Positions 4,208 to 55,135 of a DNA stretch of 64,000 nucleotides are shown here, one piece after another. Source of the DNA: Pocillopora verrucosa (Eukaryota; Cnidaria; Anthozoa; Scleractinia; Pocilloporidae). The stretch is from NCBI RefSeq assembly GCF_036669915.1, contig NC_089325.1, positions 3,418,683 through 3,482,682 on the forward strand, in the 5' to 3' direction. A program made the position numbers and the translations under genes. The stretch's first letter is position 1; each line of letters opens with the position of its first letter. Under the pieces are notes generated by a model, which saw only the letters and a list, made by a program, of their open reading frames with translations, did not search any database and was not told where the DNA came from.

Positions 4208-6336
4208 ATGGAAGAAGGATTTCAATTGTTCCTGTTTTCCCTTTTGTCGTTGCTTTTGCGTAAGTATCGTATGACACCTTTATTCGTTCGCCCCTGAGTT
4301 TTACCTATCTATTTAATTTCATGGTCTATGCCTTACAGCTGACAATAAGCTACAATGCTAATCAAAAGGCAACCTTCAGGTCATATATTGCGAAGTCATC
4401 GAGGATGAACATAAGAGCACATAAAAATATCACAGCGCTGCAAAAATCGCTCATAGCCTACTGACTGAAGATCCGCAGTGGAAGGAAGAAGATTACTGGT
4501 TTAAAGTCAGTAAGGGTTTCAAGAAAAATGCTAAAGAGACAGAAGTTCGTGCTTAGAAAATCACATTCATAGAAAATAGTTTATTGTTACTTTGAAGAAG
4601 CGGCTCTATCTAAAACAGGTGTCGTCTTGATCACATTAGTCAAAGATAATTCACATTGTTAGAATACACTAGTTTTTGTATCACTAGCTCTTTATCTCAC
4701 ATCATTAAAATACTATGTAGGTATTTTTTTTAACTCGCAGACATAAGTGTTCAGGCTAATTCTTCATGCCAACCGGATCAGATTACAATCAAAGACCCAA
4801 AAGCTGGTTCGATTCAGTGCCAGAACTGTTTAAAATGTCCACCTACCGAGGGTCTCTCAGTTAATTGCGGAGACGTAATACCTCCTTCAACACCTGTGCA
4901 GTGCAAGCCATGTGTGCTGGGAGAGACATATTCTGCTTCCCTCAAGGCCGGAGCTTGTGAGGACTGTGGAAATTGCGGTGAGTACCGCGAAACTACGAAA
5001 GCCTGTACGTTAACTTCCAAGGCCGTGTGTGGAAGGTGTAAGCCTGGCGCGTATGCCGAAGGCATGCTGGGGCTGTGTAAGCCCTGCTCCCCGTGCTGTA
5101 ATGATGGTAAAGATATCATTATACCTGAGTGTCAAGTTCCAGGTGTACTAACAGGCATGCAGTGCAGCTACTTACGATCTAACAAGTGCAGTGCATTGAT
5201 GACATCAAGTATTAGCACGGCGCCGTCAACCCTTCAACCAGATCAGTCCACGACCCAATGGCGGCCATCCTCTTCTACAACGAGCTCCAAAGTAATCTCT
5301 TCTTCAAGTGAGCCGACCGTAAACCTTATTGGAGAGGCTTCATCAAATATGCGCATCATAACTGGTTCTATTGTGGGCGGCTTCTTAGTTGTCCTCACGA
5401 TTCTTTTCATTGCGTGCTGCAAAGTTATGCGTAAACGCCGGAAGGCCTTGTCGATGAGGGTTGGTTTAGCTACAGTGGAAGACGGAGCTGGTCAGACGCA
5501 AAATCAAGAACAAAGAAATGACCAAGAAGATGAGCGCGTCAATTGGGAACAAACAGATGATAGAGTCTTTCTGCCAAACGAAGATCTGTATGAAGAGAGT
5601 CCACTTCCACATCCTACTCAAGAGGAAGGTGGTTATAGGAGTCCGGAAAAAAAAGGAGTGCAGGAGACCACCTCTCCTCTATCAGGCCAGAACAGTTTAG
5701 GTAAAAGTATGACTGGTCATGACTAAATCTTTGTTTGATTTCCTTTGTTAAGAACAAATTGCAAACCACCCTTATGTTGATTACTAGTCATACACCTAAT
5801 TACTCTCACACAGTGGTACGGACCGCTGGAAAGGGGGAGGTGGGGGGGAGGTTTTCGATATGTATCAAACAAAATCCAGCAGAAACCTTCTAAAAACTTC
5901 TTAAGCAAAAGTTTGCCTAATAAGGATGTCGCAAGGGAGATCCGAGAAACAGTAAAATCTAAGAGTATGAGGATTATAAACCCCAGAATTGACTATTAAA
6001 GTTACTGTTTCTTCTTAAGTTAAATCACAAATACCACACAATTTACTAATCAAAGACTTTCAAAATTCATTCTTTGAAATCATTTCAAAAACATATAAAA
6101 CCGTTTTGAAGGGGTTTTTGAAGGTTAATTCAAACTTTTTAAACATAATTTCAATTTCATAATCTTATGCATCTTTTGATATTACTTTAGTTTCAGATTC
6201 TAAACTTGACGGGTCTGTGGTGAAGCAGTGTACAAAATCGTCTAAAAAGCAAGTACACGGTGCCCCCAATGTTGTCACCAAGACGACCACTGTTACTATG
6301 ATCAAGGTCACTGATGAGAAGGTCACTACGGTTTGA
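4208..6336 (+). CDS. TNF-receptor-like membrane protein, copy A (3 exons)
   Basis: Exons 4208-4259, 4741-5700 and 6197-6336 give 383 residues; both introns are phase 1 with GTAAGT or GTAAAA donors and CAG acceptors. Exon 1 is a signal peptide (start ATG at 4208, hydrophobic LFLFSLLSLLL). Residues ~27-167 are cysteine-rich TNFR repeats (spaced C-x2-C pairs, C-G-E-Y-R-E-T, C-C-N-D). A Ser/Thr-rich stalk (~173-219) precedes one transmembrane helix (~223-246) and a basic stop-transfer K-R-R-K. The tail has PTQE (309-312), a match to the TRAF-binding consensus PxQE, and no recognisable death domain. The last exon, invisible in the frame of exon 2, ends in V-T-T-V, a class I PDZ-type C-terminus. 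If the second donor is not used, the protein instead ends at 5726 (345 residues). The function as a receptor for TNF-type ligands is inferred from the family. Confidence 0.85.
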
Positions 6337-6744
6337 CGACAGCCATCAGACCTTATAAATTATCTAATAACCTGATAATTTTTGCCTTGTAATTATTTTT
6401 TGTTACAGTGACAGAGAAATCGAGACATTTTCGCTACTTAATTTGTTTCTAATCGTCTTAAAACGTCTGCAAGCCCCGATTCATTCTTGTTCTAAGATTC
6501 GCTGTTCTCTTGATTAAGATTGACCACACTTCCGTAAGATCATCAGCTTTTAGCATTTTCTCACGGCAACAAGAGACTGATGAGTAATTTTGGTGGTGCT
6601 GTAAAGGCAAGAGAATGAATGTAAGCAAATCTTTATAAGAGAGAACTTGAAGGACCTATCATTTTTGATCGCTTAGAGGGTGTATCGGAGTATTTCAGTT
6701 GTGTCGCGATAAAATTTACCTGATCTCCTCATAAGGCTTTGTTT
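6337..6744. other. Spacer downstream of receptor A
   Basis: AT-rich sequence shared in part with 16276-16540 and 25595-25810. No open frame or RNA gene is recognised. A copy of the landmark ttacctgatctcctcataag lies just before the unit-specific insertion. Confidence 0.5.
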
Positions 6745-6933
6745 AACAAATAGAGAAGCCTTGACTGTGCTCTGTTCTGTTATAAAGCACCTAGGAAGCG
6801 GCTAGAACACTCAAGAAGTGGGGAGAAATACTCGACTACGTCTCGTGTTTCTCTCTACACTTCTTTCGTGTTCTAGCCGCTTCCTAAGTGCTTTATAACA
6901 GAACAGAGCACAGTCAAGGCTTCTCTATTTGTT
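6745..6933. mobile_element. 189-bp near-perfect palindrome (foldback/MITE-like)
   Basis: The left arm begins aacaaatagagaagccttga at 6745 and its reverse complement ends at 6933. Pairing continues through both arms almost to the centre (about 6839), with only scattered mismatches. It would fold into one long hairpin. Unit 2 at about 16536 has the flanking sequence without it, so it was inserted into unit 1 only. Foldback elements and MITEs have this form; the family is not identified. Confidence 0.75.
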
Positions 6934-7752
6934 TTATAATAAAGAATCCATTAAATTCTCCAAGCATTACTTTCAATTTTCAAAACAAACTCTATTTCCA
7001 AAGCGAACAACAGTGTCGTCAGCATGCTTTATACTCTCATATACTCTCTCATTTTTTTGAATGAACGACAGCCGAATTCACCGGAACATGAAGATCGCTC
7101 TGGATGACAGCTCCGCAAAACTCGGCTGCAGTGAAAGGACATCAAAGCAAGCTCTTATTTTTGCACTCGAAGGGCGGCCGATGTAGTTTCTGAGGCTTGC
7201 TTTACTGTGATAACCGGAGATCGTCATGATGAGCGAACCGCGATGGACTTTGGCATGATCATATTCGCTCAGACACCGTCATGATTAGTATGAATTTTAA
7301 CAGTTATGCCAGTTTGGTTATATTTTTCATCATTTCTGTTTTGTTCTGTTTTGTTTTTGAACACTGAACTTTATATACTATACGTGTTAGCTGTGTTTGA
7401 TTTTTATTACCGTACGTAAGCTTGCAATCTAACTGAGCGTGAAAATCTTTAAAACTCGGAATGTCTATTTTGTTTTTCCTTTGAGGATTTTCGTATCTGC
7501 TCACGTTTTAATAACGTAAATTACAGCTTCTGGTATGTTTACAAACCTTTGTAAACTTACCGGCTCGCTTGTTCCGAAATTTCACTTTCAATTATCGGAA
7601 AAAAGCCAAAAAGAAGTCCCGGAAAAGGTCGAGCATAGTACAATTTGGCAGATGGCGTAACAGCTTGAGCTCAGCTCTATGCTCTATACTCTCATAGAGC
7701 ACGCTCTTTCAACCAATGACAGCGCATGTTATATCCGAACTTTATTATAAAA
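6932..7752. mobile_element. Non-autonomous TIR element with 13-bp inverted termini
   Basis: TTTTATAATAAAG at 6932-6944 is matched by its exact reverse complement at 7740-7752. The 821-bp body has no coding capacity I recognise and shows degenerate internal symmetry (tatactctcata near both ends). Together with the adjoining palindrome it accounts for the ~1 kb by which unit 1 exceeds unit 2 at this point: unit 2 reads ggctttgtaatatagttatg across the junction (16528-16547). Confidence 0.65.
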
Positions 7753-10700
7753 TATAGTTATGATCCCCTTTGAATGCAATTTTCGTTAAGTTATTCTTGG
7801 GAATGTGGTTCGAGTTTTAATCCTCATATATCAGTTTGCCATTTGAAAAACATGAAGAAGCTAGCCGGTGAATATAACCACGTTCGAAACAATTTCCCTC
7901 ACTCCTTAAGTATAATGATTGATGTATATCAGTACCATGCTGTGATGAAGTGAATTAGTACCCCTTTAGATTCCCGTGGAGCTGAAACAGGAACTTCTCT
8001 TTCTCTTACTAATAAACAACTATTTAACAGTAGGAAAAATAAAAACTTGCTTCTGTGAGAAACTTAAGTACAATAGAACCTGTTCGTGGTCACCCACAGG
8101 GAATGGGGGGGTGGCCGCTCAATGCACGTTGACTGCTATGACAGGAGTCAAACGCTTTAAAAGACGCGTTTCGTCCTAACAGTTCTTGAAAGAAGATAAT
8201 CTGCAAAACCACAGGTCATTTGATCTCAAAGAACTAACATTGTTTTCAGGAGATAAACAAGGAATAAATTTGACTTGGCTTAGATTTGACTTTTTTTTTT
8301 TTGTATTAGGATTTTAGTTCAACATTTCGAACAGAAGAGAAAATGCCTCCAAAACCTAAAAAATCGTCAAACAATGGATTATTGTGTCCAGAGTACTCTA
8401 GGAAACCGCTTAATCGACAACCGGGAACTGCTCAATCCCGAAAATACCTGAGATGGTCACGTGACCGTCCAATTCTTTGCTTATCGTTTGACGTAAGCTG
8501 CGGGCATTGTGTTCCCACCGCGTGGCCAGATCAGTCAGATAAATTGTCGAGAAGACTTCTGTAACTTCAAACACCCGGCAATCAATCCTGAGCTTGCAAT
8601 AGGAGGCTGTTTATAAGGTATTCGTGAATACAATTGTTTTTGTTTGTTGTTTTTTCCTTTATGTTTCGGGGTATTTGGTACAATGACGGTTTAAGGTTAT
8701 CAATAATTCCTGCCTGAATTTTACCGCCTATATCTAGACGACAACGTCGCATTTACATTCACTGAGCATGGAAATTTATGGTTTGCGAGCGTTATCAATC
8801 AGATCGAAAACGTAAACGGAACCTAGAAGCTGCCGGGCTGGACCGCATTTAAAACTAACATAACAATGACGAAGCTAAAAACAAACACAGCTATCGGGCT
8901 GATATGGAAATTATCTTGATCTTTAGAGTGACTTCCCGCCAGGCGAGATCTACCGTTCTATTTCCCCGATAGTTTTATTCTTCATCTTCTTAAATTTAGC
9001 GAAATGATTCGTGATTATTTTTTTTATTTATATATTAAATTCTTATTCTCTGAAAGAAGCCAAGGTCACAACCGCTTGACAAAAGCTTACTTCGTAATAT
9101 TTTCACTTGTTTTCAGTCGTGTAATTTCTTGACCGCTCAGGTTTTATCATGAGTTCCTTTTACACGCGATGAGGTCTAATCTTAAGAATACTTCAGTTAT
9201 TTTATTCTGGATGTTAACACACGAAAGAGAGATATTGTTTCGACATCTAAGACGTCATGTGACTGAACACAAAAAAACCAGGAAAATGAGACATAATTAG
9301 TTTCTTTGATATATATTTACCGAACGTTCGGTTAAACTGTCAATTTTTGGTTCCAATATGTAATCGAAACATCCCTAAAAGTTTGTACGTTAAATGCTCT
9401 ACAACAATCGTAACGTTTATTCTTTGCTCTACGCACGATGAGTAACAGTCTTTAGAATAATCAGAAGTTTAATTGTTCCGTTATTTTAATAGGTTTCAAA
9501 ACAAATTTTCGAACGATCACGTGACGGTCAAAGTAGGATCACGTCTCACAAATAAGGGACTTCGACTTTTCGACCGTATCAGTTATGATGTATCAAAAAC
9601 TTAAAGAGACCGCCACGAAATATGTCATAATTCTTCATTTCATAGAAAAAGAAAAAAAAGAAGAAAAACAAAAACATGTGCGGGTGTGTAGAGACCACAT
9701 CTCGACAATACCTGTGCAGACACGGGGTCATATTTCATTATTCCATCCCTAATGGTATAATTTACATGATAAACCTGCGCTGCTTTCACTGTTGATTAAT
9801 TTATTGATGTTACCATCAATATTTCCATTAAAAGTTCGATTGCGCCCAAGATCCTGCATAGATAATGTGTCTATCTAATCTTACGTCAACTCTCTAATAG
9901 GAAGGAAATATTAAATGTAAAACGTTTTTTTGTTCCGGCTACACTTCCCTCTGTCGAAAACGTGAAAAAGCTGTATTACGCTTCCTAATCAAGTTACGGT
10001 TTATTCAATTGATTTTATGATTCTATTACAATGTTTCGGTTAACTCCCACTCACAGCTCTTAGCTTATTTGAAAAAAAAAACACTAAAAACGTAAGGCAG
10101 TAAGCAGGTCGGAACAAGGCCATATATGGGCGTTAAGAAAAATAAAATGTGACAGATAAATGCTATGTAGTAGACAAATCACTTACAAATGTCAATCAAA
10201 TTAAGACGAATTAACGTATCGTAAAAGCTCCAACAACTCTTATAGTGATTATTTCTTCACTTATACTACGCTGATGCTCCCTTGGGTCGTCAATCCTGAC
10301 ACAGACAGGCTTTAATTAGGCCCTTGAATTTGCGTATGACAAAACGAGAATCACTAAATTAAACATTATAGCTCTTTTTTTAAGTATTTGTTTTTCTGTG
10401 TGTGTGTGTGTGGAGGTTTATTTGCATGTTATAACATGCAAATTAGCAAATTAGGCTAGCTGAAATAACTCTTTGAAAATTAAAAAAATGTGAAGTAATT
10501 ACGCCTTGAATGGAGAGGAAAAAACCAAGCCTGCGATCATTTTAAAAGTTTTCTCTGCGTCTCGTATCAGACTCAGAAAATAAGTTTTATTTTTATCTCT
10601 TCCGCTAACTTCCTTTTTCCTTATTAAATACACGGCCGATAACCTTAGGGCTTGATGCTTTATAGGATTAGCGTATTTGATTAACGATTACGATGTTTAT

Positions 10701-12600: not shown

Positions 12601-12659
12601 TCACGAAATATTTGGTTAGTACCATGATTACGTAACAAGGAAGTAAGTGTGTCCATGAA

Positions 12660-12773
12660 AAGCGGGTGGACCGTGAAGACGACCTAAATATAGAAAGAGC
12701 ACTTTTAAAAAGTTCCAGCGGTCTTGACTTGGTTGGGTTCTCGCGCAACTTTCTTCACCCGTTAGCTGGAAAA
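12660..12773 (+). other. Candidate first noncoding exon, unit 1 (upstream of receptor B)
   Basis: The segment ends at ctggaaaa|gtaagctt, a good donor conserved in units 1, 2, 3 (ends 22928, 31403) and 4 (37469). The sequence before the donor (gttgggtt-tcgcgcaactttct) is well kept in all four. It lies ~1.4 kb before the receptor start codon. The 5' limit is arbitrary. An untranslated leader exon is the simplest reading. Confidence 0.35.
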
Positions 12774-14124: not shown

Positions 14125-16275
14125 ATGGGAGAAGGATTTCCACTGTTCCTGTTTTCTTTTTTCACGTCGCTTTTGTGTAAGTATTGTATGTCACCTTTCT
14201 TCGTTTATCATATGTTTGTCAGGCCCCTGAGTTGTACCTATCTGTATAATTTCATTGTCTATGCCTTACAGCTGACAATAAGCTACAATGCTAATCAAAA
14301 GGCAACCTTCAGGTCATATATTGCGAAGTCATCGAGGATGAACATAAGAGCGCATAAAAATATCACGGCGCTGCAAAAATCGTTCATAGCCTACTGACTG
14401 AAGATCCGCAGTGGAAGGAAGAGGATTGCTGGTTCAAAGTCAGTAAGGGTTTCAAGAAAAATGCTAAAGAGAAAGAAGTCCGTGCTTATAAATCCCATTC
14501 ATAAAAAATAGTTTATTGTTACTTTGAAGAAGCGCCTCTACTAAAACAGGTGTCGTCTTGATCACATTAGTCAAAGATAATTCACATTGTTAGAACACAT
14601 TAGTTTTTGCATCACTAGCTCTTTATCTCACATCATTAAAATACTGAAAGGTATTTTTTGTAACTCGCAGACGTAAGCGTTCATGCTAATTCTTCATGCC
14701 AACCGGATCAGATTACAATCAAAGATCCAAAAACTGGTTCGATTCAGTGCCAGAACTGTTTAAAATGTCCACCTACCGAGGGTCTCTCAGTTAATTGCGG
14801 AGACGTAATACCTCCTTCAACACCTGTGCAGTGCAAGCCATGTGTGCTGGGAGAGACATATTCTGCTTCCCTCAAGGCCGGAGCTTGTGAGGACTGTGGA
14901 AATTGCGGTGAGTACCGCGAAACTACGAAAGCCTGTACGTTAACTTCCAAGGCCGTGTGTGGAAGGTGCAAGCCTGGCGCGTATGCCGAAGGCATGCTGG
15001 GGCTGTGTAAGCCCTGCTCCCCGTGCTGTAATGATGGTAAAGATATCATTATACCTGAGTGTCAAGTTCCAGGTGTACTAACAGGCATGCAGTGCAGCTA
15101 CTTACGATCTATCAAGTGCAGTGCATTGATAACATCAAGTATTAGCACAGCGCCGTCAACCCTTCAACCAGATCAGTCCACGACCCAATGGCGGCCATCC
15201 TCTTCTACGACGAGCTCCAAAGTAATCTCTTCTTCAAGTGAGCCGACCGTAAACCTTATTGGAGAGGCTTCATCAAATATGCGCATCATAACTGGTTCTA
15301 TTGTGGGCGGCTTCTTAGTTGTCCTCACGATTCTTTTCATTGCGAGCTGCAAAGTTATGCATAAACGCCGGAAGACCTTGTCTATGAGGGTTGGTTTAGC
15401 TAAAGTGGAAGACGGAGCTGGTCAGACGCAAAATCAAGAACAAAGAAATGACCAGGAAGATGAGCGCGTCAATCGGGAACAAACAGATGATAGAGTCTTT
15501 CTGCCAAACGAAGATCTCTATGAAGAGAGCCCACTTCCACATCCATCTCAAGAGGAAGCTGGTTATAGAAGTCCGGAAAAAAAAGGAGTGCAGGAGACCA
15601 CGTCTCCTCTATCAGGCCAGAACAGTTTAGGTAAAATTATGACTGGTCATGAATAAATCTTTGTTTGATTTCCTTTGTTAAGAACAAATTGCAAACCACC
15701 CTTATATTGATTACTAGTCATACACCTAATTACTCTCACACAATGGTACGGACCGCTGGAAAGGGGGAGGGGGGGGAGGGGGCTAGGTTTATCGATATGT
15801 ATGAAACAAAATCCAGCAGAAACCTTCTCAAAATCTTCTAAAGCAAAAGTTTGCCTAATAAGGATGTCGCAAGGGAGATCCGAGAAACAGTAAAATCTAA
15901 GAGTATGAGGATTCTTAACCCCAGGATTGACTATTAAAGTAACTGTTCCTTCTCAAGTTTATATCGCAAATACCACAAAATTTACTAATCAAAGGCTTAC
16001 AAAATCCATTCTTTGAAATCATTTCAAAAATATATAAAACCGTTTTGAAGGGGTTTTTGAAGGTTAATTTAAACTTTTTAAACATAATTTCAATTTCATT
16101 AACTGATGCATCTTTTGATATTACTTTAGTTTTAGATTCTAAACTTGACAGGTCTGTGGTGAAGCAGTATACAAAATCGTCTAAAAAGCAAGTATACAGT
16201 CTCCCCAATGTTGTCACCAAGACGACCACTGTCACGATGGTCAAGGTCACTGATGAGAAGGTCACTACGGTTTGA
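14125..16275 (+). CDS. TNF-receptor-like membrane protein, copy B (3 exons)
   Basis: Exons 14125-14176, 14671-15630 and 16136-16275 have the same lengths as in copy A and give 383 residues. The cysteine-rich region from exon-2 residue ~70 to the stalk is identical to A; the few changes lie in the stalk, membrane-proximal segment and tail (for example C-C to S-C at the membrane exit). The TRAF-type motif is PSQE. The last exon begins after tttag and encodes ...V-T-T-V; its frame is open for the full 46 codons. Without the second splice, translation would end at 15656. Upstream, the presumed leader-intron acceptor reads tttccg in place of tttcag (14069-14074). Exon 1 and its flank match D, while the rest matches A, so the gene is a mosaic. 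Confidence 0.85.
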
Positions 16276-16710
16276 CGACAGCCAGAGAAATTGGGACATT
16301 TTCGCTACTTAAGGTGTTTCTAATCGTCTTAAAACGTCTGCAAGCCCCGATTCATTCTTATTCTAAGATTCTCTGTTCTCTCTCTCCGTGAGATCATCAG
16401 CTTTCAGCATTTTCAGCAAATCATTAAAAGAGAAAAATTAAAAGGACCGGTCATTTTCGATCGCTTGGAGGGTGTATCGAAGGATTTTACTTGTGTCGCG
16501 ATAAAATTTACCTGATCTCCTCATAAGGCTTTGTAATATAGTTATGATCCCCTTCATTCGCAATTGCCAATAAATTGTCTATACCCCCCCCTTTATACTC
16601 TGTTAGCACGACTGATCCTCTCCATGTTCCATCTGTACCCACTCAAATGAATCCACCATAAGGGGGTGGGGGTGGGTGGGCTTGGGTGAAGGGAGTGAGA
16701 ACGCCTTCAG
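16276..16710. other. Spacer with degenerate repeat, unit 2
   Basis: No gene seen. Around 16535-16680 a C-run, G-rich stretch and landmarks (gatccccttcattcgcaatt) weakly resemble the dispersed repeat at 39680-39965 and 55145-55425. It carries the empty site for the unit 1 insertion at 16528-16547. Confidence 0.45.
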
Positions 16711-16793
16711 CACACAGTTCTTCCAATGTTGTAACCAGGAAGACCGCTGTCACGATGTTCAAAGACACCGATGAGGAGGTCACTACGGTTTGA
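16711..16793 (+). pseudogene. Partial duplicate of the last receptor exon, unit 2
   Basis: The second half of the 140-nt exon recurs about 520 bp downstream of B's last exon. It encodes N-V-V-T-R-K-T...K-D-T-D-E-E-V-T-T-V and a stop, in one open frame. The first half and the acceptor are missing, replaced by G-rich sequence. A related copy lies at 25848-25931. Confidence 0.65.
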
Positions 16794-24270: not shown

Positions 24271-25594
24271 ATGGAAGAAGGATTTCCACTGTTCCTTTTT
24301 TCCCTTTTGTCGTTGCTTTTGCGTAAGTATTGTATTACAACTTTCTTCGTTTATCATGTGTTTGTGAGGTCCCTGGGTTGTACCTATCTATTTAATTTCA
24401 TGGTCTATGCTTTACAGCGGACAATAAGTTACAATGCTAATCAAAAGGCAACCTTCAGGTCATATATTGCGGAGTCATCGAGGATGAACATATGAGCACA
24501 TAAAAATATCACAGCACTGCAAAAATCGCTGATAAACTTTAGGGTGAAGATTCCCAAAGGGAGGAAGAGGGTTTACCGGTTTAAAAGCAGCAAGAGTTTC
24601 AAGGAATGTGCTAAAGAGACAGAAATCCGTGCTTATAAATCCCATTCATATAGAAAATAGTTTATTGTTACTTTGAAGAGGCGCCTCTATCTAAAACAGG
24701 TGTCGGCTTGAACACATCAGTCAAGAATAATTCCCATTGTTAGAACACAATAGTCCTTTTGCCATTAGCTCTTTTTCTGGCGTCAAAAAGATACTGAAAG
24801 GTATTTTTTAACTCGCAGACGTAAGCCTTCAGGCCAATTCTTCATGCCAACCGGATCAGATAACAATCAAAGATCCAAAAACTGGTTCGATTCAGTGCCA
24901 GGACTGTTTAAAATGTCCACCTGGCGAGGGTCTCTCAGTCAATTGCGGAGACGTAATACCCCCTTCGACACCTGTGCAATGCAAGCCATGTGTGCTAGGA
25001 GAGACATATTCTGCTTTCCTCGAGGCCGGAGGTTGTGAGGACTGTAGAAATTGCGGTGAGTACCGCGAAACTACGAAAGCCTGTACAGTGACTTCCAAGG
25101 CCGAATGTGGAAGGTGTAAGCCTGGGGCGTATGCCGAAGGCATGCTGGGACTGTGCAAGCCCTGCTCTCCGTGCTGTTATGATGGTAAAGATATAATTAT
25201 ACCTGAGTGTCAAGTTCCAGGTGTACCAACAGGCCTGCAGTGCAGCTACTTACGATCTAACAAGTGCAGTACATTGATGACATCAAGTATTAGCACGGCG
25301 CCGTCAACCCTTCAACCAGATCAGTCCACGACCCAATGGCGGCCATTCTCTTCTACAACGGGCACCGAAGTAATCTCTCTTTCAAGTGGGCCAACCACCA
25401 ACATGGTTGAAGAGAACTCACCAAATGTGGGCAGCATAGTTGGTCCTGTTGTGAGCAGCTTCACAGCTTTCGTCACGATCCTCGTCATCGTGTGCTGCAA
25501 AAATATGCGCAAGCGCCGGTCTCACCAATGTTGTCACCAAGACAACCACTGTCATGATGATCAAGGTCAACAGTGCAAGGTCACTACGGTTTGA
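24271..25594 (+). CDS. TNF-receptor-like protein, copy C, cytoplasmic tail lost
   Basis: Exons 24271-24322 and 24819-25594 give 275 residues. Signal peptide, cysteine-rich repeats and transmembrane helix are intact; the ectodomain differs from A at several positions (for example E-C-G-R for V-C-G-R, C-C-Y-D for C-C-N-D). After the basic M-R-K-R-R the frame joins directly to the second half of the last exon (junction ~25521), equivalent to a deletion of ~830 bp in A. The fused part is read mostly in a shifted frame, giving a Cys/His/Asp-rich tail, but a one-base loss returns it to the family ending K-V-T-T-V and stop. The PxQE motif is absent. The product looks like a membrane-anchored receptor with minimal tail, possibly a decoy. 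The leader-intron acceptor tttcag is intact. Confidence 0.8.
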
Positions 25595-25847
25595 CGACAG
25601 CCATCAGCTCCTATAAATTATCTAATAACCTGATAAGTTTTGCCCTGTAATTTTTTTTTGTACAGTGACAGAGAAATCGGGACATTTTCGCTACTTAAGT
25701 GGTTTCTAATCGTCTTAAAACGTCTGCAAGCCCCGATTCATTCTCGTTCTAAGATTTTCTGTTCTCTCGATTAAGATTGACCACACTTCCGTAAGATCGT
25801 CAGCTTTTAGCATTTTGGGTGGGTGAAGGGAGGGAGGACGCCTTCAG
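25595..25847. other. Spacer after receptor C
   Basis: Matches the region after the last exon in copies A and B (gacgacagccatcagctcct onward). No gene seen. Confidence 0.5.
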
Positions 25848-25931
25848 CACACAGTCCCCCCAATGTTGTAACCAGGAAGACCACTGTCACGATGTTCAAA
25901 GACACCGATGAGGAGGTCATTACGGTTTTGA
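25848..25931 (+). pseudogene. Partial duplicate of the last receptor exon, unit 3
   Basis: Close relative of 16711-16793. An extra T before the stop (gttttgacg instead of gtttgacg) removes the family stop, so this copy would not end in V-T-T-V. Confidence 0.6.
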
Positions 25932-32754: not shown

Positions 32755-34775
32755 ATGGGAGAAAGGTTTCCACTGTTCCTGTTTTCTTTTTTCACGTCGC
32801 TTTTGTGTAAGTATTGTGTGTCACCTTTCTTCGTTTATCATATGTTTGTCAGGCCCCTGAGTTGTACCTATCTGTATAATTTCATTGTCTATGCCTTACA
32901 GCTGACAATAAGCTACAATGCTAATCAAAAGGCAACCTTCAGGTCATATATTGCGAAGTCATCGAGGAAGAACATGAAAGCACATACAAATATCACACCA
33001 CTGCAAAAATCGTCCCACTGAAGATCCGCGATGGGAGGAAGAGGGTTTAATAGTTTAAAGTCAGTAAGGGTTTCAAGAAAAATGCTAAAGAGACAGAAGT
33101 CCGTGCTTATAAATCACATTCATAGAAAATAGTTTGTTGTTACTTTGGAGAAGCGCCTCTATCTAAAACAGCGCCGTCTTGACCCCATCAGTCAAAGATA
33201 ATTCCCATTGTTAGAATACACTAGTCCTTGAATCACTAGCTCTTTATCTCACATCAGTAAAATACTGAAAGGTATTTTTTAACTCGCAGACGTAAGCGTT
33301 CAGGCCAATTCCTCATGCCAACCGGATCAGATTACAATCAAAGATCCAAAAACTGGTTCAATTCAGTGTCAGGACTGTTTAAAATGTCCACCTGGCAAGG
33401 GTCTCTCAGTTAATTGCGGAGACGTAATAACCCCTTCAACACCTGTGCAGTGCAAGCCATGTGTGCTGGGAGAGACATATTCTGCTTCCTTCAAGGCCGG
33501 AGGTTGTGAGGACTGTGGAAATTGCGGTGAGTACCGCGAAACGACGAAAGCCTGTACGGTAACTTCGGCCGTGTGTGGAAGGTGTAAGCCTGGCGCTTAT
33601 GTTGAAGGCATGTTAGGACTGTGCAAGCCCTGCTCTCCGTGCTGTAATGATGGTAAAGATATCATTATACCTGAGTGTCAGGTTCCAGGTGTACCAAAAG
33701 GCATGCAGTGCAGCTACTTACGATCTAACAAGTGCAGCGCAGTCGTGACATCAAGTATTAGCACGGCGCCGTCAACGCTTCAACTAGATCAGTCCACGAC
33801 CCAATGGCGGCCATCCTCTTTCATAAGGAGGACCGAAGTAAATTCTCCTTTAAGTGAGCAAGCCGTCAACCTGACTAGAGAGGCTTCACCAAATGTGGGC
33901 ATCATAGCTGGTTGTTTTGTGGGTGGCCTTCTCATCGCGATCATCGCCATCGCGTGCCGCATAGTTATGCCTAAACGCCGGAAGGCCTTATCGATGAGGA
34001 TTGGTGTGGTTACAGTGGAAGACGGAGCTGGTCGGGCGCAAAATTGCGAACAACGAAATGATCAAGAAGACAATCGGGAACAAACAGAGGGAAGAAGTTT
34101 TCTGCCAAACGGAGATCTGTATGAAGAGAGCCCACTTCCACATCCCTTTCAAGAGGAAGCTGGTGATAAAAGTCCGGAGAAAATAGGAGTGCAGGAGACC
34201 ACGTCTCCTCTATCAGGCCAGAGCAGTTTAGGTGAATATATGAATTGTTATAATGATATTTTTTGTTTGTTTCTCTTTTTAAGAACAAATCACAAATCAC
34301 CCTTATGCCTTAAAACCAGTCATACACCTAATCTCTATACCTAATCACACAATGGTACGGATCGCCAGAAAGGCAAAATCCGGCAGAAGCAAGAGCCTTC
34401 CAACTTTTTCGAAAGTAAATAGAAATTTCGCTTAACTATAATTTCGTTGGGGAAATTTTAGTGAAAGGGAAAACCATGGAGTGTGAGGATTCCAACCGAC
34501 AAACTTGTCTTACTGTTCCATCTTAAGTTTAAGTTGAAATCATTTCAAAAACATTTGAAACCTCAAATTTTTAGAACAATTTCAAACCGAGCTGTAAACT
34601 AATGCATCTTGTCATATTTTTTTCTGTACCTTTAGATTCTAAATTTGACGGGTTTGTGAGGAAGCAGTGTACTGAATCGTTTAAAGTGAGAGCACACAGT
34701 CCCCCCAATTTTGTAACCAGCAAGACCACTATCACGATGTACAAAGACACCTATGAGAAGGTCACCACGGTTTGA
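32755..34775 (+). CDS. TNF-receptor-like membrane protein, copy D (3 exons)
   Basis: Exons 32755-32806, 33290-34231 and 34636-34775 give 377 residues. Signal peptide, cysteine-rich repeats, stalk, transmembrane helix and tail follow copy A. D is the most diverged of the array: one Lys is deleted (T-S-A-V-C-G), the stalk and membrane segment are changed, and the tail is shorter. The TRAF-type motif is PFQE. The last exon has many substitutions yet keeps exactly 140 nt, an open frame and the V-T-T-V ending, which argues for selection on it as coding sequence. The second donor is weaker (gtgaat). If unspliced, the frame runs on to 34344 with about 30 unrelated residues. The leader-intron acceptor carries tttccg as in B. 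Confidence 0.83.
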
Positions 34776-39965: not shown

Positions 39966-40069
39966 CGAAGTTGTTATAATTATTTTAAATTTTATTGTTC
40001 TTGATCTTTTATTTTCAGGCGCTCGTTTATTTCATTCTGTATAATAACTTCTTTCCTTCAGGTTCTGTT

Positions 40070-42631
40070 ATGTTATTTCTGGCACTTTCCATTCAAATTA
40101 TACTATTAACGCACGCAGCCCCAATGGATTGCCAAAAGAACACTGCTGTCTGCTTGGAAGAAATAATGAAGGAAATGACCCAAGTTCGATTTGAGTTAAA
40201 CATTCTCACTGAGAACAGAACATTAATAAGACGTAAGTAAGATTGTCTTCGCTTTACCTGTATAGATCATTTCCATCTTCCTTTTCTCTTTATTAAATTA
40301 ATCATTGCTTGGTGCAGAGTGAAAAACCTACGGAAGTCCTATAACGGCGGAATGCGATTTCAATTTTTTTTACGTAATCAATATGCGGTTCTAGAGGGCA
40401 AAATTTTCTACGCAGAGTTCCATGTTTCAGTTTAGTGGCGATTCTTTACTCACGCGGCGATGTAGTGAAACATTTGCAAGGAAATGTTTTTCGGCGTTTT
40501 GTCATCATCGTCTTTAACGTTATCATAATTTTAAAACATTCATTAAAAAAATCGATATAGAAGAGAGTTGGAGACGAGAGTTAAGTATGCAGGTATCCTT
40601 GAGCCAGTCAAATCGGACTACTAAGAAAGAATTTAGCCCTTTATAGTAATAACAAGTTATCCCATGTTCCCTTACAAAATTAAGAATTAAATATCACCTA
40701 TGTTTTCTAAGTTTCAAAAATTGCCCGAGTCGCGAAATTGATTCTTGAAAACGTATGTGAGTATTATAAACCCTTAAATTTTATTGGCTCCCTGCGATTA
40801 CCGAAACAAATTTTGACATAGCAAACTGTTTCAATTGTTGTAGTCCCAGGAGAGACAAACTCACGAAAGCGTTACCTTTAGATCCGAATCCGGAAAGCGC
40901 AAGGGACCAATCTGTTAAGGACATTAGCCTATTTAATTGATTATTGATTAGTTTAATTATTTCCCTTATCCTAGGTACGAACATGGTTACAATGTTCATC
41001 TGTTTGTCTATATTTTTATTGGTTTTGGTCTGTTACATTTCATACATTTCAGTCTCGATCAGTAAAATAGCCCCCAAACACTGCGTTAACCGCGTCTTGG
41101 AGCGACATTTCTTGGAATCTTATGAATTAGATTTTTGGTCGCCGCAAGTGCCAGACAATCAGATTACAGGATTCGGTTAAAAAATATTGTATTTATGTGT
41201 TATGAAGAATACAAGGTTTGTCTTCTTCTTGTTATGAAATGTTTACAGATTCCTCATCAGGTGGTATAGGCAAATCTATATACCTACCCCTTTTTTTAGA
41301 GTATGCCTATGACATTGAATACCTTTATTTTATATCTAAAAGCCACGGACTGTGCTGAGCTCTACAAATCCGGTAGAACGGTTAACGGAGTTTATACAGT
41401 AGATCCTGATGGTTCAGGTGCCTTTAATGTATATTGTGACCAGACCACAGCCGGTGGAGGCTGGACAGTCTTCCAGAAGAGAATTGATGGTTCCGTTGAT
41501 TTTAACCGAACCTGGGATGACTACAAACATGGCTTTGGCAACTTGGTTGGTGAATTTTGGCTCGGATTAGATAAGATAAACCGCCTGACGCAAAACAAGA
41601 CAAAGAACAAGCTTCGAGTTGATCTGAGAGCAATTACCAACAAAATTGTTCACCCTGAGTATGATTGGTTTGGAATTGCGACCGAGACGAACAAATATCG
41701 GCTGTACATTGGCAAAATGACGACAAGTAAGTCATCGATCAACCAGTTTTTTAGCCATATTGTTCGAATTATATCTTTGCTACCCCTTCATCGGCAAAGG
41801 GTCCTCCTCGCCCCCTTCCCCCTCATCCTTCTCCTCGCAACCAACAAAGAGTGTTTTTTCCCTGCTCTTTACCGTTTGGCTATGTTTAGCAGTGAATCAC
41901 ATTCTTCTCATGCGCAGTTGAGTCCACACCCCTCCGTAGAAAATGGCAATTTGCTTTCGAGGTTGTTGGAGAGTGATTCCTTAGATATATTACGAAAAAG
42001 CAAACTCTGAAATTGAATTTTAAAAAAGTTACTAAAATCGTTTCTACCAAAATATTGTAGTTGTTGGATTATCTGACTTGCGCGCTCTTAACAAAATCAC
42101 GATGTTTTGCTCCACCTCGACGCATGAAAGTCAATCAGTTATCATCATCGACGATTGAAAATAAATTCATTCTTTTCATGTTAAGAAAAATCTGTTTCAT
42201 CGAAGTAGTATGTCACTTCTGCTGTCGAATTTTTTTGTTTTCTTGTCGGTCAAACATCATCCTTGAGACTCCAAAAGGCATTAATCCAAGAGATTACACA
42301 CTCTTGCGTAATGCTAAAATTATGCTACTATTTTTTTTCGTTTGGTACAGATGCAACTGTTTGCCCTGATTCCCTCAGCCAACACAATAATTTCGATTTT
42401 GGTATCTGGGAAAGAGGTCCTGCAGATCGCGTTCAAAAAAGAGGCGTAGGCTGGTGGTATGATGAAGGTAGAGAAAATGCTGTTCACTCAAATCTTAACG
42501 GTATCTATCCGCTTTGTGGAAGTGAAACCGCAGCTGATATCCACTGGGGCCATTTAGCTCCAAAGAGGGGCGCCGCGGGCAGCGCTCCTAAATCATCTGA
42601 AATGAAAATTAGGCCAGTGGATTTCTTTTAG
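40070..42631 (+). CDS. Secreted fibrinogen-related (FReD) protein, 3 exons
   Basis: Exons 40070-40232, 41343-41726 and 42351-42631 join in phase 1 at both introns and give 275 residues. Exon 1 has a signal peptide (MLFLALSIQIILLTHAA) and a short helical linker with an N-R-T glycosylation site. Exon 2 is the start of a fibrinogen C-terminal domain: D-C-A-E-L-Y-K-S-G, G-G-G-W-T-V-F-Q-K-R, G-E-F-W-L-G-L-D. Exon 3 holds the end: S-N-L-N-G, S-E-M-K-I-R-P. Soluble FReD proteins act as lectins or in innate recognition in many invertebrates. In the third exon the usual calcium-site acidic cluster is replaced by E-R-G-P-A-D, and both cysteines of the usual C-terminal disulfide are missing (A-V-H-S-N-L-N-G in place of a C-H-x-S form). 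It may be a divergent or non-lectin member. The start at 40070 is preferred because upstream in-frame codons run through an apparent intron end (cttcag). Confidence 0.82.
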
Positions 42632-43190: not shown

Positions 43191-43197
43191 TGATTAA

Positions 43198-46632: not shown

Positions 46633-46636
46633 TTAA

Positions 46637-48080: not shown

Positions 48081-48084
48081 GCTG

Positions 48085-48815: not shown

Positions 48816-48975
48816 TTTTTTTCTGTCCCGCGCACACCCTCGCTTTTCTTTTCAAAATATTAAAATTGTTATGGTAAACATTCTTATCAAAATAAGACAA
48901 CCAGAAATAGCCTTTGAGCTTTTAGCACTGACTATCTTTTGTGCTTTGTAAACATCGCCACTTATGGTAACATTA

Positions 48976-50430
48976 CCTTCAGGTTTTGCGCCGCTGAGAT
49001 CTGATGAAGAAGGAAAATTCTTGTACAGCCTACAGACATTAAATTATTTTCTTGCAGTTGGTTTTTGCGGACTAAGTGTATATATTACTTATGACATTCT
49101 TTTCTCTGCATCCGGCGCTACCGCGCTTCTTTAGTGTTTCAGTAGTTAAAAATTCAAGAAAATTTTTCCTTATGGGGTAAAGAACTTATACGATTTATTT
49201 CGCAGCCTGTGACCTAAAATGTGCTTCGTCGGCTAAACACAGGACCAAAAGCCACAACATCTCAATTTCCTCTCTGCGATCTGGGTGCCCACGTGGTGGC
49301 AGCTGGGACATCTCCCTAGCTTTTTACTCTTGCTAACGTCTCCATTGAACAAAATGAGCATCAGAAGAAAACAGAAAGAAACTCCACAAACATGGAAGAA
49401 ATTCTTAAGTAAGAAAATCTAGTGCCATGTAATCGGATGTTCTCAAAAATTTTAAATGATCACCTAAAGAACTTCGAGGATAAAATGTTTCCGCGTCGCT
49501 TGAAAGCCCTCGGACATTTACCGTGGTAAAGCTGTTAGCTTCTCTTAAGCTGGAGAAGCCTCCATTGTGTTTCCTGATTGTTCTGTGTTTCGGCGCAGAT
49601 ATGGTGAAGTTTTGCAGCCAGAAACCCCAAATCATTCATTGCATAAGAAAAACAAAAACAAAAAAGTAGTCAGATGCTCGTGTAAAATCAGTTTATACAG
49701 ACGATCAAATGTTAGAAAAGAATAATATAGAGCTACTCAGAACTCAGAAGCTTTTCTCTATTTGTTATGACTAGTCTTAATTTCTCAACCTTCCGGTAAT
49801 TTAAGTAATTTCCTCATGCCTTTGAATAAGCTATTGACATTGTCAACAAAGCGGAGCGGTTTTATTGTTTCCCTTGCACTTGAAAAATTCAAGACACGAG
49901 AGTAGAAGAAACGGAGACATCTTCCTTCTGAGAGCAGAAACAAATTTCGTTCGGAATTCTATCGATAGAGAGGAGTAATAGCGTGTGGAACAGTCTGTCT
50001 TAGCAATGAACTGGCAGCCAAAAATATGAAAGAATTTAATCGTGCATCAAATAAATTACACGCTAGCAACAGTCATATTAAACATGGACTTTGCTTATGA
50101 ATAATAACAAAATTTTTGTTTTAAAATTTGAAGGCGGGTAAATCAAGTCAAGGTCGTTGATCTCTAGGACCACAGTTTAAGTTTCATAGACACTGCATTC
50201 GTAATTAGATGCAAATTATTGCAAACGAACGTTATTATTTTAAATCCATGACTCCACCAGCTATGCTGACAAACCCCATCGCTAAATTAAAAAGAAATAT
50301 TCTTTTTTATTCTTATACAGTCTTGGACCCGACTGTCCAAAGTCCTACCGCCCCCAAATTAACAATGGTTCATAAATAAGAGTCATGCTAAATTTTGGTG
50401 GGACTTGTAGTCCCCTCTTAAAGCCAATTG
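48976..50430 (+). repeat. Duplicated noncoding block, copy R1
   Basis: About 1.45 kb aligned with 57285-58835, from cgctgagatctgatgaagaa to ctaccgcccccaaattaaca. It includes the near-palindrome gttgacattgtcaac (at 49836 or nearby). No intact reading frame is shared by the copies. It lies ~5.2 kb upstream of receptor E. Confidence 0.75.
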
Positions 50431-52480
50431 TCGAGAGTGAATCAATTAACAAGCATGTAAGACCGCTCATGTGGGAAAAACAGCGCAAACACATTTCGCT
50501 GCATTACATTTAATTTCACTTACTTGACCTTGATAACGCGTCGAATTTTTTCCGATTCAGTGCCTAATTCGTGACCCCATGCATTTGTAATACTTCTTAC
50601 ACGTCAATATTTTCACAGTGCAGTCCGCCCTAGGTAACAGGTCTTCATAAAAAAAAAAGAATTTTACTCATAAAGTCGGTATCAAAAACTTAACTTTATG
50701 CAGGAAAACTCTTTTATTACCTTGAATGGCGCTTTTGCCTGTGAGTTCATTATTTCTAGTGAGTTTGGCGATTACACAAAACAAGATCATAAATGGTGCC
50801 CTCAATTTTAATTAGCAATTTGGATGATTCTCGTTTTACTTGGACCATGAAGTACATCTACTGCTGAAACATTGAAGGTGCTAAACACCCTAATTCCGGC
50901 GGTTTCAATTTAATTTTGAGGTTTTAAGAAGAAGATTATTTCGCAATTTTCTCGACCTAAAATAGGTAGCTTCCTGTTTTTTGGGCGTGTTCGAATTCTG
51001 TGAACCCGGACGCCCACTCTATTACAACCCTTGAAAACTTGCTGATGCATCCTACGAATGTTTAATTTCGGTTTACGTCACCTTCCGATTCAATAAGAAA
51101 AAACTCCCTAAGATGACCTGCGTATATTACTAATCGGTACATAAAATTATTCTCCGAATCATTTTCTTGTTGCAGCGTGTGCGCAAAGTTGTAGGCCAAG
51201 CCACGACAATTCAAGACTCTACAAGGCAGGATACAAGGTAAGATAGGTAGAATAACAAAAGAGATTCAGGTGACTGTACATGAACCAGCAACTCAAAGTT
51301 TCATTGGATTAGCTAAAAATGAGAAAAGCCATTTAACCATAGTGGTCACACGAATCAATCACTTTCACTACTGCGTTCGCTGTTTTGCAGTATATTTCTG
51401 ATATCCAAGATTAATTTAAGCCTTTCTCCGAAAGACTTTGACTGAGCAAATTCAGAATTGGATGTCGCCACTAGGCTGGTTGTCATTCAGAATGATGGCT
51501 CGAACTTTTGTATTTATCGCGGGCCTGTAACCCAGCTGGTGTAATTTCGTGACTTTGCTACATGAGGAAATATGACTTATTTGTTTTTTGTTTTCTTTTG
51601 TTCAATCGAAACGCTCACTGTCTCGGTGAGATGTTCTGCTCCTGGCCTTTTCTATCGGCTTCCCTCAAAGGTCTCACATTTTATCTCGTACGAGATGTGT
51701 TCGCCGCAATTTTAATAATGTAGGTAAATTTTATGGATGTTCTCCACGGTCACTGTATATAAGATATTTCTTGCAATGGTCACAAATGCCCTCCAATTTA
51801 CAACTATTAATCTTTCTTCTCAGAATGGTTTAGGCCTCAAAAAAATTTCTCAATACAAAATCTTGTTCTTATTTGATTGCTGTATGCACAAACAGATGAA
51901 AAGATAAAAGCAGCATGAATGCCTCCTACCGAACTCACGTAAATTGCCCAACGTACGGTTTCAACTTGAGGAACTACTGAAGTTAAAAATGTCACAGTGA
52001 TAACTGACACCATTTTTCAGTTTTTAATGATTTGTTACGCAAGTACGCAGCAACCAAAACCAGAAAACTTAATTTGTTTGCGACCCTACAAAAACAATCT
52101 TCTGGATAACCCGTGTGTCGTGCCATTGCCGAATTAGGCAAACCACAAAATCATCAATTGTACACGGAAAATAAAATTGCTTTAAACTTCAGCTGACATC
52201 GAAGCTTAAAGGTCAAATGATTTTCAGACAATATCGAAATCTCACCTATTTTAAGTTCTCTTGTCTGGTCTATTTATGTTGCATGACTTAACCCAGATAG
52301 ACTTAAACATTTAGGCTCAACTGCTTCATACATTTGCCTCTAAACACATACAACCTGTTTAGTTGAAACACTGTATAGCGATTCGCTTGCGGTTATGATC
52401 ATGTACCCCGGCTTATTGCCTTCACGTTGTCCTGAAGCGTGTTAGATCTTAATTAGAAGGCCATTATCTTTGTAGATTCT
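50431..52480. other. Intergenic region upstream of receptor E
   Basis: No gene apart from the exon-like segment at 51176. The flanks of that segment (tcattggattagctaaaaat near 51302) retain faint similarity to the end of the array units. Confidence 0.4.
51176..51237 (+). other. Candidate noncoding exon upstream of receptor E
   Basis: 62 nt between ttttcttgttgcag and gtaagata. The core (acaattcaagactctaca) and donor match the array exons at 37693-37755, while the neighbouring intron sequence is mostly different. It supports a common gene architecture for receptor E and the array genes. Confidence 0.5.
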
Positions 52481-52495
52481 GAGCTTTTTATTCCC

Positions 52496-52713
52496 TTTTC
52501 TAAAGACAAAAGGAATCGCAAACTGTGCGCGATCTATCCGACGCTTATGACTCTGCTCTAACGATGAAATACCTCAAGGAGCTTCCTCTCTTTCTAGGAA
52601 AGGGGTCCATCGATACTAGAAATTTAGCAAGAAGACGGGAACGTCATTTCAGAACGAAAGAGCGCCCGTCGCAATCAAAACGCCCAGGATTTGCATCAAT
52701 TGCGCACTTGTAA
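52496..52713 (+). other. Possible coding fragment, unknown
   Basis: An open stretch ending at 52713 with balanced composition (core A-L-T-M-K-Y-L-K-E-L-P-L-F-L-G-K, then an Arg-rich segment). No start with clear context, no recognised motif and no paralogue in the window. It might be an exon remnant or chance. Confidence 0.2.
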
Positions 52714-53049
52714 ACGAGATAATGCTGTTTGAAATGATTTAAGAAATCATTTGCAGGATAACCTGTTCCCTATATTTGTTTTATTCCATGTATTTGGGAA
52801 CATTTACCGCTACATTTTCTGCTGGATTCCCGAAAGGAAATAAAACACTATCGTTAGCAAGCGCTCCAAGATTTCAGGACTCAGTTCGCTTTTATTTAAG
52901 CAAGGCTTTCAACAATTTAAGGGCCTTTCTTTGATACATTTCTTTAACCCAATATGAAAACTCTCAGAAGGGGGTGCTGTTGATTTTCATCGTGAATTCG
53001 TCTATCAATAAACTTGCTTAATGTTGAAGTTTATCAAAATAAAATATCC

Positions 53050-53385
53050 ACGAAGCTTACCTACTGTATTACTGCGATTTTAATCGCTGATCGCGGCGAA
53101 CTTGATCGTCAGTTTGAATCGCACGTGATCTGCGCTACCGATCGATGCGGACACACTTCACGATATATTTTCAATTTCGTAGTGATTTCTTGAGAGGCAG
53201 CACTTTCTTCGCGCGATTATTGTAGTCGCTTGACGTTACATCATATACTCACGTGAAATGGTGGCGAATATAATTGCCGATGACAGAGATCGGCGACAAT
53301 CGCTATCACTGCAGCGGGCACACCTGGCGATTTGGCCTGTTGCCGCGATCGGCGCATAAAACCGCTTAGTGTGTCACCAGCTTAA
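53050..53385. repeat. GC-richer repeat-like island
   Basis: About 330 bp, noticeably richer in GATCG/GCG words than its surroundings (atcgctgatcgcggcgaact; ctgttgccgcgatcggcgca). Similar words appear in opposite orientation at the two ends, suggesting a decayed inverted-repeat element. No coding capacity. Confidence 0.35.
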
Positions 53386-54202
53386 ATTAAGCTCTGATGG
53401 GTAATACTGCGTGACAGAAAGGTTTTTGTTTCTTTGTGTGGTTTGTTTCTGTTTTCCTTACTCTTAGTGGATTGCAGGAGTTTATGAGTGCAAGCTAAAA
53501 TTTCTCCGTCGGCTTCAAGTTCATCAGAACATAGATTAATTTTTCATCTTTAAACCCTCACCCTTGTTACTTCGATGCAATTATTCAAACACCAAGCGAA
53601 AACGACATCTAAATCACCAGCGTAGCGCTGAAAGAAAGCGCATTCTTCATTTGATTACGATGTACAGCGGGAATTCACAGCGCGTAACTCATTTCAAATT
53701 GGCCAATCAGCTTTTGCAACCGACAACGACTTGGACGCTTACACACCTTAGCAGACCAAATGGGAAATTAGCACCCACTCTCCATTAGGTGTCCCCTCCT
53801 CTCCTAATATCTTTTCTGGCTAAAATGGGCAAAAGGAAACCTTCTCGTCTCATTATTTGTGGGCTGCAGCCATGATCAACGCCCGCTAATCAAGCACCTT
53901 TTCTTTTAAGGAGGATACTACCTATAAGCCGAAAACCTTTATTATTTATATGATTATATTTAAGGAAATAGGGGTCTTACCAGCTGATATGCGTGCGGAC
54001 ATCCTATCAATTAATGAATTGTAATGCCGCATTGTCGCTCACTGTTTCAGATCTTACTCACGTTTGTTCTTCTGACCAACCCATTTGTTGCCAATAAAGC
54101 AGCTGCTTTTGAGCTCACTTGATTCAAAATGACTTTCTTTTTCAGCACGACCCCCAAGCTCTGAATTGAACATCTCAAGAAGGTTTAGTTTTGAGATTTA
54201 CA

Positions 54203-55135
54203 ATGTCCTCTTCTGATCGACTTTTCGGCCTACTATACCTTAGCATGATGTCTGTTTTCTGGATGTCTGTCTCCGCCTCGCCATGTCCAGGTAACAGTAT
54301 AACCATCCGGGATTCAGTAACGGGGCACGTTCAGTGCCAGGACTGCTTGGTGTGTCCGGCGGGGCAGGGTCTCTCTGTGGACTGTGGTGATGTAATATCA
54401 CCACAGACACCCATCGTTTGTAAGCCATGTGAGCTAGGGAGAACTTATTCATCTAAAAGCGAAGCCGGGGCGTGCAAGAGTTGTATGAATTGTGGGGAAT
54501 ATCGAGAGACTATCAGTTCTTGCACCCTGACCTCTGAGGCAGTGTGCGGGACGAACTGTAAGCTTGGAGCTTACCCAGAAGATATGCTTAGCATGTGTAG
54601 ACCGTGTTCCGCTTGCTGCAACGACGAGGATGATATCATTGAGCCTGAGTGTCAGGTGCCGGGGGTGCCTAAAAACAAGCAGTGCAGCGAGCTTAGATCA
54701 GAGAAGTGTAGCAAGGTGATAGCTAATGTGAGTGTCAGTACAAGGGTACTTGACGCGGAGGCCAATCTCTCCGCGTCATCATTGGCAACCTTAACAAAAG
54801 TGCAAGCGTCCACTCCAGTCACAGAGCACTCTAAAAAGGATTCAGCTTCCACGGACGATGCTTCTCCACTATATGGTAAGATGATTGGCGTTGCAATTGG
54901 AGTTCCTTTACTGATCTTGGTGCTGGTGGCGCTTATCCTTATCGTGAAAAAAAGACGTACAAGGCAAGCATGTAAAAAGACTAGCGATAATGATGTGGAA
55001 AGGCTTGATGTACAGGGGAGTATAAGGCCAGTCAAGGACGAAAAGTCTGATCAACTGCCGCATCCAGTGCAAGAAAGTGAGAATCTCACAGTAGCAAAGC
55101 CGGAAACGCAACTTCCGGCTGAAACAAAAGTATAA
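54203..55135 (+). CDS. TNF-receptor-like membrane protein, paralogue E (single coding exon)
   Basis: 310 residues in one uninterrupted exon. Signal peptide ~1-26, cysteine-rich repeats ~28-169 with the family blocks C-G-D-V-I, C-G-E-Y-R-E-T, C-C-N-D and P-E-C-Q-V-P-G-V-P, then a Ser/Thr-rich stalk, transmembrane helix ~226-248, stop-transfer K-K-R-R and a ~58-residue tail. The tail has PVQE (288-291), the same core as the TRAF site of CD40, and ends E-T-K-V, a class I PDZ-type C-terminus. No death domain. The array copies have introns after the signal peptide and before the last exon; this gene has neither. A leader exon probably ends at the acceptor ctttttcag (54145), and 51176-51237 may be part of it. 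The ATG at 54203 is chosen because codons upstream in frame lack ATG. Confidence 0.88.
   Translation: MSSSDRLFGLLYLSMMSVFWMSVSASPCPGNSITIRDSVTGHVQCQDCLVCPAGQGLSVDCGDVISPQTPIVCKPCELGRTYSSKSEAGACKSCMNCGEYRETISSCTLTSEAVCGTNCKLGAYPEDMLSMCRPCSACCNDEDDIIEPECQVPGVPKNKQCSELRSEKCSKVIANVSVSTRVLDAEANLSASSLATLTKVQASTPVTEHSKKDSASTDDASPLYGKMIGVAIGVPLLILVLVALILIVKKRRTRQACKKTSDNDVERLDVQGSIRPVKDEKSDQLPHPVQESENLTVAKPETQLPAETKV

Follow-up and report, generated by a model that had tools for sequence, protein, structure and literature searches.

The cytoplasmic tails of four receptors of the tumour necrosis factor receptor (TNFR) superfamily in the stony coral Pocillopora verrucosa, here termed A, B, D and E, carry a conserved PxQE peptide amid sequence that otherwise changes rapidly, and these proteins are most probably death-domain-less, TRAF-recruiting receptors that work like CD40 or OX40. 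They are encoded in a 64,000 nucleotide stretch of contig C14 (NC_089325.1, positions 3,418,683 to 3,482,682), hereafter the window, and same-genome searches covered the 353 Mb, 52-contig P. verrucosa genome. The preliminary description of this DNA had identified PxQE with the major TRAF-docking consensus and its PVQE form with the core of the CD40 peptide, in agreement with the consensus and the CD40 core PVQET as given in the relevant part of PMC6125299. At the level of sequence, docking of TRAFs by these tails is well supported, because the peptide is conserved across coral relatives and intact TRAF pockets are encoded in the same genome.

The window contains four tandem TNFR-like genes, A to D, one per unit of approximately 8 to 10 kb, followed by E, an older paralogue. 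At the protein level A is 95% identical to B and 77% identical to D, while E shares about 42 to 45% identity with A, B or D over most of its length, the best local stretch between A and E reaching 62% over 155 residues. Because A, B and D arose by recent duplication, they provide a single line of evidence, and E an independent one. The features concerned, with a slash marking the exon boundary, are as follows.

4741-5700, + strand: receptor A, exon encoding the cysteine-rich domains, the membrane helix and the greater part of the tail; open frame with a TNFR_c6 match at E 2.5e-4 (below the Pfam cut-off), flanked by AACTCGCAG and TTTAG/GTAAAAGT.
5607-5624, + strand: PHPTQE of A, core PTQE at 5613-5624, followed by GVQET; from the six-frame motif search and column conservation.
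6197-6336, + strand: putative last exon of A, VTTV and stop; splice in phase, with the same exon in the P. verrucosa model P0043, in Stylophora P0071 and P0072, and in P0070.
14671-15630, + strand: receptor B, exon with the cysteine-rich domains, membrane helix and tail; 95% identical to A.
15537-15554, + strand: PHPSQE of B, from the six-frame motif search.
16136-16275, + strand: putative last exon of B, VTTV and stop, from the reading of the splice junction.
16710-16793, + strand: additional, incomplete last exon (EEVTTV) beyond B, found by tblastn.
24824-25594, + strand: receptor C, tail shortened and without PxQE; the frame enters a last-exon remnant and ends CKVTTV.
25817-25930, + strand: additional, incomplete last exon (EEVITV) beyond C, found by tblastn.
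33290-34231, + strand: receptor D, exon with the cysteine-rich domains, membrane helix and tail; 77% identical to A.
34138-34155, + strand: PHPFQE of D, from the six-frame motif search.
34636-34775, + strand: putative last exon of D, VTTV and stop, from the reading of the splice junction.
54203-55135, + strand: receptor E, a single open frame from signal peptide to ETKV; TNFR_c6 at 29.5 bits against a cut-off of 29.4, with a membrane helix and a low-confidence tail in the structure model.
55058-55075, + strand: PHPVQE of E, from the motif search and column conservation.
55124-55135, + strand: TKV and stop of E, a candidate class I PDZ-binding end; kept in the paralogues L002 and L003, AKV in L004.

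When all six frames of the window were searched, PHPxQE was found at the four listed sites, all on the + strand and each in a TNFR-like frame, as the preliminary description had reported; shortening the pattern to PxQE gave eight occurrences, half of which fall outside A, B, D and E. Relatives were gathered through two protein searches giving 68 and 95 sequences (117 in all), those with named sources coming from the stony corals Pocillopora, Stylophora, Oculina, Orbicella, Montipora and Porites. Many are frames read into introns, such that their C-termini may not be real, and an xGK pattern close to the C-terminus is present in 41 of the 117. Together with the five window receptors these made a set of 122 sequences, from which five lacking a clear membrane helix and twelve with tails shorter than 40 residues, including C, were dropped, and the remaining tails were represented by 36 sequences under 70% tail identity. 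PxQE is present in 17 of these 36, compared with a mean of 2.0 after shuffling, and the broader patterns Px[QE]E and [PSTA]x[QE]E in 20 and 26; for each of the three, none of 2000 shuffles scored as high. A wider motif, [PSTAG]x[QE][ED][ST], occurs in 56 copies, against 5.0 in shuffled tails and a shuffled maximum of 14. None of five control patterns came near the level of PxQE: PxEQ was found in three tails (matched by 649 of 2000 shuffles), EQxP in one, QExP in four (299 of 2000) and PxNE in none, and the most enriched, PxQD, in four, against 1.5 in shuffles and with 111 of 2000 as high.

The same positions stand out in a column alignment of 42 relatives, consisting of three window rows and 39 of the 117. 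Among 85 well-filled tail columns, Glu(+1) ranks first and Pro(-2) second in conservation, and the last two positions of a second motif, G-x-Q-E-T, located 13 to 14 residues after PxQE, rank seventh and ninth. Of the 42 rows, 27 have Px[QE]E beginning at the aligned Pro and 30 have it anywhere in the tail, with PxQE itself in 25. The x column ranks 16th of 85; this residue differs in each of the four receptors (A, T; B, S; D, F; E, V) and is I or T in P0070 to P0072, and its variability would correspond to a tolerant position of the TRAF pocket. The six-residue PHPxQE, described previously as a block, holds in the window and was rejected as a conserved unit, since the H and first P vary, reading LP or RLP in L003, L004, P0002, P0070 and P0071. 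The tail of L003, a paralogue of E in the same genome, is identical to that of the NCBI P. verrucosa protein P0003.

Peptides of the TRAF6-binding type were also considered. The wide form of PxExxY was present in 9 of the 36 tails against 5.5 in shuffles, 80 of 1000 of which were as high, and is therefore not clearly above the shuffled level. The aromatic form, in four tails against 0.9 (7 of 1000 as high) and absent from D, P0072 and others, is suggestive and is kept as a lead. PNEDLY in A and B (5574-5591 and 15504-15521), PPEGPY in P0070 and PPEVPY in P0071 match PxExx(aromatic/acidic), and sit just before PxQE, by 13 residues in A and B. This order is like that in CD40.

Membership of the TNFR superfamily is indicated by TNFR_c6 matches at E<=0.01 in all 42 aligned relatives. 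Within the window E only narrowly passes the Pfam cut-off, below which A, B and C fall, and D, represented by a shorter open reading frame, gave no TNFR_c6 match at E<=0.1. The structure model of E contains helices at residues 4-19 and 233-256 and an unstructured, low-confidence tail, which together with hydropathy gives a type I topology; this topology is read from E, the signal exon of A to D not being located in the window. With a mean predicted local distance difference test score of 50, the model had p75NTR, TNFR2 and OX40 as its top Foldseek matches, all at E >= 0.065, hence no significant fold match. The absence of a death domain, previously claimed, is supported by the sequences that were searched: no Pfam Death match was found in spliced A, E, P0070, P0072, P0023 or P0025, nor in any of the 42 aligned relatives, many of which are frames that may lack later exons.

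Potential partners are plentiful in the same genome. Thirteen positions of TRAF2 were treated as its peptide-binding pocket, three of which (399, 467 and 468) we take to belong there. The other ten are named in the pertinent passage of PMC6125299. Among the best 30 of 51 MATH exon matches, 19 (L021-L039) keep 10 to 12 of the 13 pocket residues, and the other 11 keep 3 to 8; outside the pocket the 19 are 50 to 65% identical to TRAF2, and 18 of them share a Leu-to-Phe change at 432. L021-L039, read here as MATH exons, are candidate parts of TRAF genes. A named coral TRAF, P0201 from Porites harrisoni, retains 12 of the 13 positions, although the coral TRAF proteins were the best 120 of 1967 by similarity, and their general conservation therefore proves little. 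On contig C4, TNFR matches at 24.97-25.07 Mb are followed by the TRAF matches L025-L027 at 25.088-25.123 Mb, placing a TNFR array within about 20 kb of three intact-pocket TRAF-type MATH exons, receptor and adaptor genes being neighbours.

These data suggest how the receptors might operate. A, B, D and E would be type I membrane receptors without a death domain, whose tails, predicted to be unstructured, would present at least one TRAF-docking peptide belonging to the major Px(Q/E)E class, and in A, B and D the G-x-Q-E-T copy would add a second. Clustering of the receptors by ligand would bring TRAF trimers to the tail, and these would in turn trigger NF-kB or MAP-kinase signalling, as with CD40 and OX40. 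For A, B, D and E themselves, we infer TRAF binding, clustering and the downstream pathway. The likeness to CD40 and OX40 consists of a cysteine-rich ectodomain, one membrane helix and a short tail with a PVQE-type peptide. The OX40 peptide, PIQEE, is close to the PTQEE of A. E has PVQES and CD40 PVQET (PMC6125299). By contrast, ectodomain similarity is weak, the best match to a solved structure being TNFR1 at E 0.011, and the coral A-type genes have an extra last exon; the likeness described here is one of features.

The preliminary description had further proposed that each receptor with a complete tail ends in T-x-V, a class I PDZ ligand. In E this can be read directly, as a single open frame ends ETKV at 55135, while VTTV in A, B and D is encoded by a further exon of about 46 residues downstream, ending at 6336, 16275 and 34775, and depends upon a splice that we infer from sequence features. 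The donors are TTTAG/GTAAAAGT, TTTAG/GTAAAATT and TTTAG/GTGAATAT (all TTTAG/GT), the acceptor YAG/ATTCTAA lies approximately 400 to 510 bases past the donor, and joining keeps the phase in all three genes. The Stylophora NCBI models P0071 and P0072 use the identical junction, and P0070, which comes from an assembled 1,676-base contig and is 83% identical to P0071, reads through it as a spliced 385-residue protein with two extra residues. An A-type last exon behind E was sought and rejected: no copy occurs in the window or in L059 and L060, which belong to the paralogues L002 and L003, and L054 matched over no more than 7 residues. Partial copies of the VTTV exon are also present downstream of L010 (L051 2065-2145) and L011 (L052 1826-1936), as downstream of B and C, and look as if the exon had been duplicated on its own.

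It has to be considered whether these receptors dock twice, PxQE recruiting TRAF and TxV binding a class I PDZ scaffold, for example of the Lin7 or DLG type, that places the receptor at a membrane domain. This is possible, if rather doubtful. The TxV of A, B and D and that of E arise from two unrelated C-terminal sequences. The last exon changes fast, with dN (non-synonymous divergence) 0.25 and dS (synonymous divergence) 0.31 between A and D, ratios above 1 for A-B and B-D, and dN/dS of about 0.8 to 1.3 over the three pairs, yet A, B, D, P0070 and P0072 all agree at positions 0, -2 and -3, a comparison from which P0071 was excluded, and VT[TPS]V in P0072 and P0070 differs only at the free -1 position. 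Class I C-termini were found in 9 of the 117 relatives and all nine are TxV, where composition predicts 3.2% class I and 0.6% TxV. Set against this is their narrow distribution: the nine comprise five E orthologues, three A-type proteins (P0043, P0070 and P0072) and the distant P0067, from two named sources, Pocillopora and Stylophora, whereas the named models of Oculina, Orbicella, Montipora and Porites have other C-termini. Even within the pocilloporid group the end is not always kept: L004, a paralogue of E, has AKV through a Thr-to-Ala change, L002 and L003 keeping TKV; the Stylophora orthologue P0071 has lost VTTV, its frame running past the site; and the A-like L015 would run into an early stop. 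Of the two motifs, PxQE is conserved across coral relatives and TxV was seen almost exclusively in close ones, and a PDZ anchor, nearly confined to Pocillopora and Stylophora type genes, is only suggested. In pocilloporids the C-terminal TxV may make a PDZ contact, as a minor and unproven addition to TRAF docking.

Nor would such a pairing be as unusual as had been supposed. In Drosophila, the intracellular part of the TNFR Grindelwald binds both Traf2 and the PDZ protein Lin7/Veli, according to the passages concerned in PMC8024323, and Fas and p75NTR bind PDZ domains of PTPN13, Fas through a C-terminal SLV (PMC7763032, likewise in part). The coral receptors would resemble Grindelwald in having both TRAF and PDZ contacts, a proposed likeness of function, and would resemble Fas and p75NTR as TNFR-superfamily receptors with PDZ-binding ends. 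The Veli contact in Grindelwald is an internal stretch, unlike the coral C-terminal TxV, and Fas and p75NTR both carry death domains, of which no match was found in the coral receptors searched.

The two motifs occur in several combinations among copies in the same genome, for which the reading covered 39 of 60 TNFR matches. The 15 best matches to E, L001-L015, consist of seven A-like and four E-like copies together with L005, L006, L007 and L009, after which the match falls from E 4e-57 to 8e-26. The expectation that every receptor with a complete tail has both motifs is borne out in the window; among these 15, both are present in six (A, B, D, E, L002 and L003), PxQE alone in one (L004), a TxV end alone in three (C, L011 and, via the annotated model P0043, L010), and neither in five (L005, L006, L007, L009 and L015). 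The TxV-only copies might be TRAF-less decoys in a mixed array, binding ligand and scaffold and damping the full copies. C and L011, which is similar, do open into a short tail with CKVTTV, and P0043 keeps the last exon despite the loss of the L010 tail; however, these could be decaying copies: the C relatives P0079 and P0080 have altered ends that run past or miss VTTV, and the membrane helix of L010 is damaged. Decoys are an unlikely explanation. L010 (C14:3403142; L051) no longer has the tail with PxQE, nor a complete membrane helix, while its near relative P0073, from another source, keeps PHPTQEE and GVQET. A broader and still less likely idea is that the TRAF-docking tail and the C-terminal scaffold-binding exon are separable modules, gained and lost independently by tandem pocilloporid TNFR copies, to give an array of receptors that are both anchored and signalling (A, B, D, E, L002 and L003), one that signals without an anchor (L004) and decoys that are anchored but lack TRAF docking (C, L010 and L011), tuned against the approximately 19 co-expanded intact-pocket TRAFs, three of them beside another TNFR array on C4.

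Several observations weigh against A, B, D and E being CD40-like TRAF receptors. The shuffle counts for the 36 tails overstate independence, the tails being related by descent. In the alignment, the Gln(0) column ranks only 14th of 85, gaps mean that the residues in the two conserved columns, Pro and Glu, do not always come from the same stretch of a tail, and 12 of the 42 rows lack Px[QE]E; in 11 of them Pro is replaced by S, T, A or G, and one, P0100, has none of these. Close copies lack the motif too: L015 has PTPE, L005 and L006 have GVEE without PxQE, and L007 and L009 have neither. Among the distant receptors on C4 and C14 (L016-L020 and L061-L080) no PxQE was seen in the exon read, though their tails may continue in other exons. 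It is nevertheless highly improbable that PxQE is a partnerless by-product of acidic, PEST-like tails rich in Pro, Gln and Glu, as composition-matched shuffles and control motifs fall short of its level and no tail columns are better conserved than those of the motif Pro and Glu, even if the tails appear by eye to be rich in E, Q, P, S and T and are modelled with low confidence.

A to E belong to a TNFR family known to be expanded in corals. For Acropora digitifera, a table in PMC4979521 lists 40 cysteine-rich domain proteins, of which 13 have a death domain; for Pocillopora damicornis, 39 members are given in the parts of PMC6208414 and PMC4979521 drawn upon. The role of invertebrate TNFRs without death domains is posed as an open question in PMC4979521, from which the word TRAF is absent, and the passages of PMC6208414 name TRAF-like genes only as coral-specific genes. 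No report of TRAF-docking or PDZ motifs in cnidarian TNFR tails was found in titles, the beginnings of abstracts, or passages of PMC3324498, PMC5730576, PMC6208414, PMC4979521 and PMC9897584. A conserved TRAF-docking peptide alongside many intact-pocket TRAF-type exons offers a concrete and cheaply testable answer, namely that death-domain-less coral TNFRs act as CD40-like TRAF receptors. If true, this suggests that the PxQE-TRAF contact would predate the split between cnidarians and bilaterians, unless it is convergent.

Elsewhere in the window, a gene with a fibrinogen-like C-terminal domain lies between D and E (41303-42631), apparently in at least two exons, the first frame matching Pfam at E 7e-43 and the second at 4e-4, below the cut-off. 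On the minus strand, positions 2330-3082 contain a 250-residue open frame without any Pfam match.

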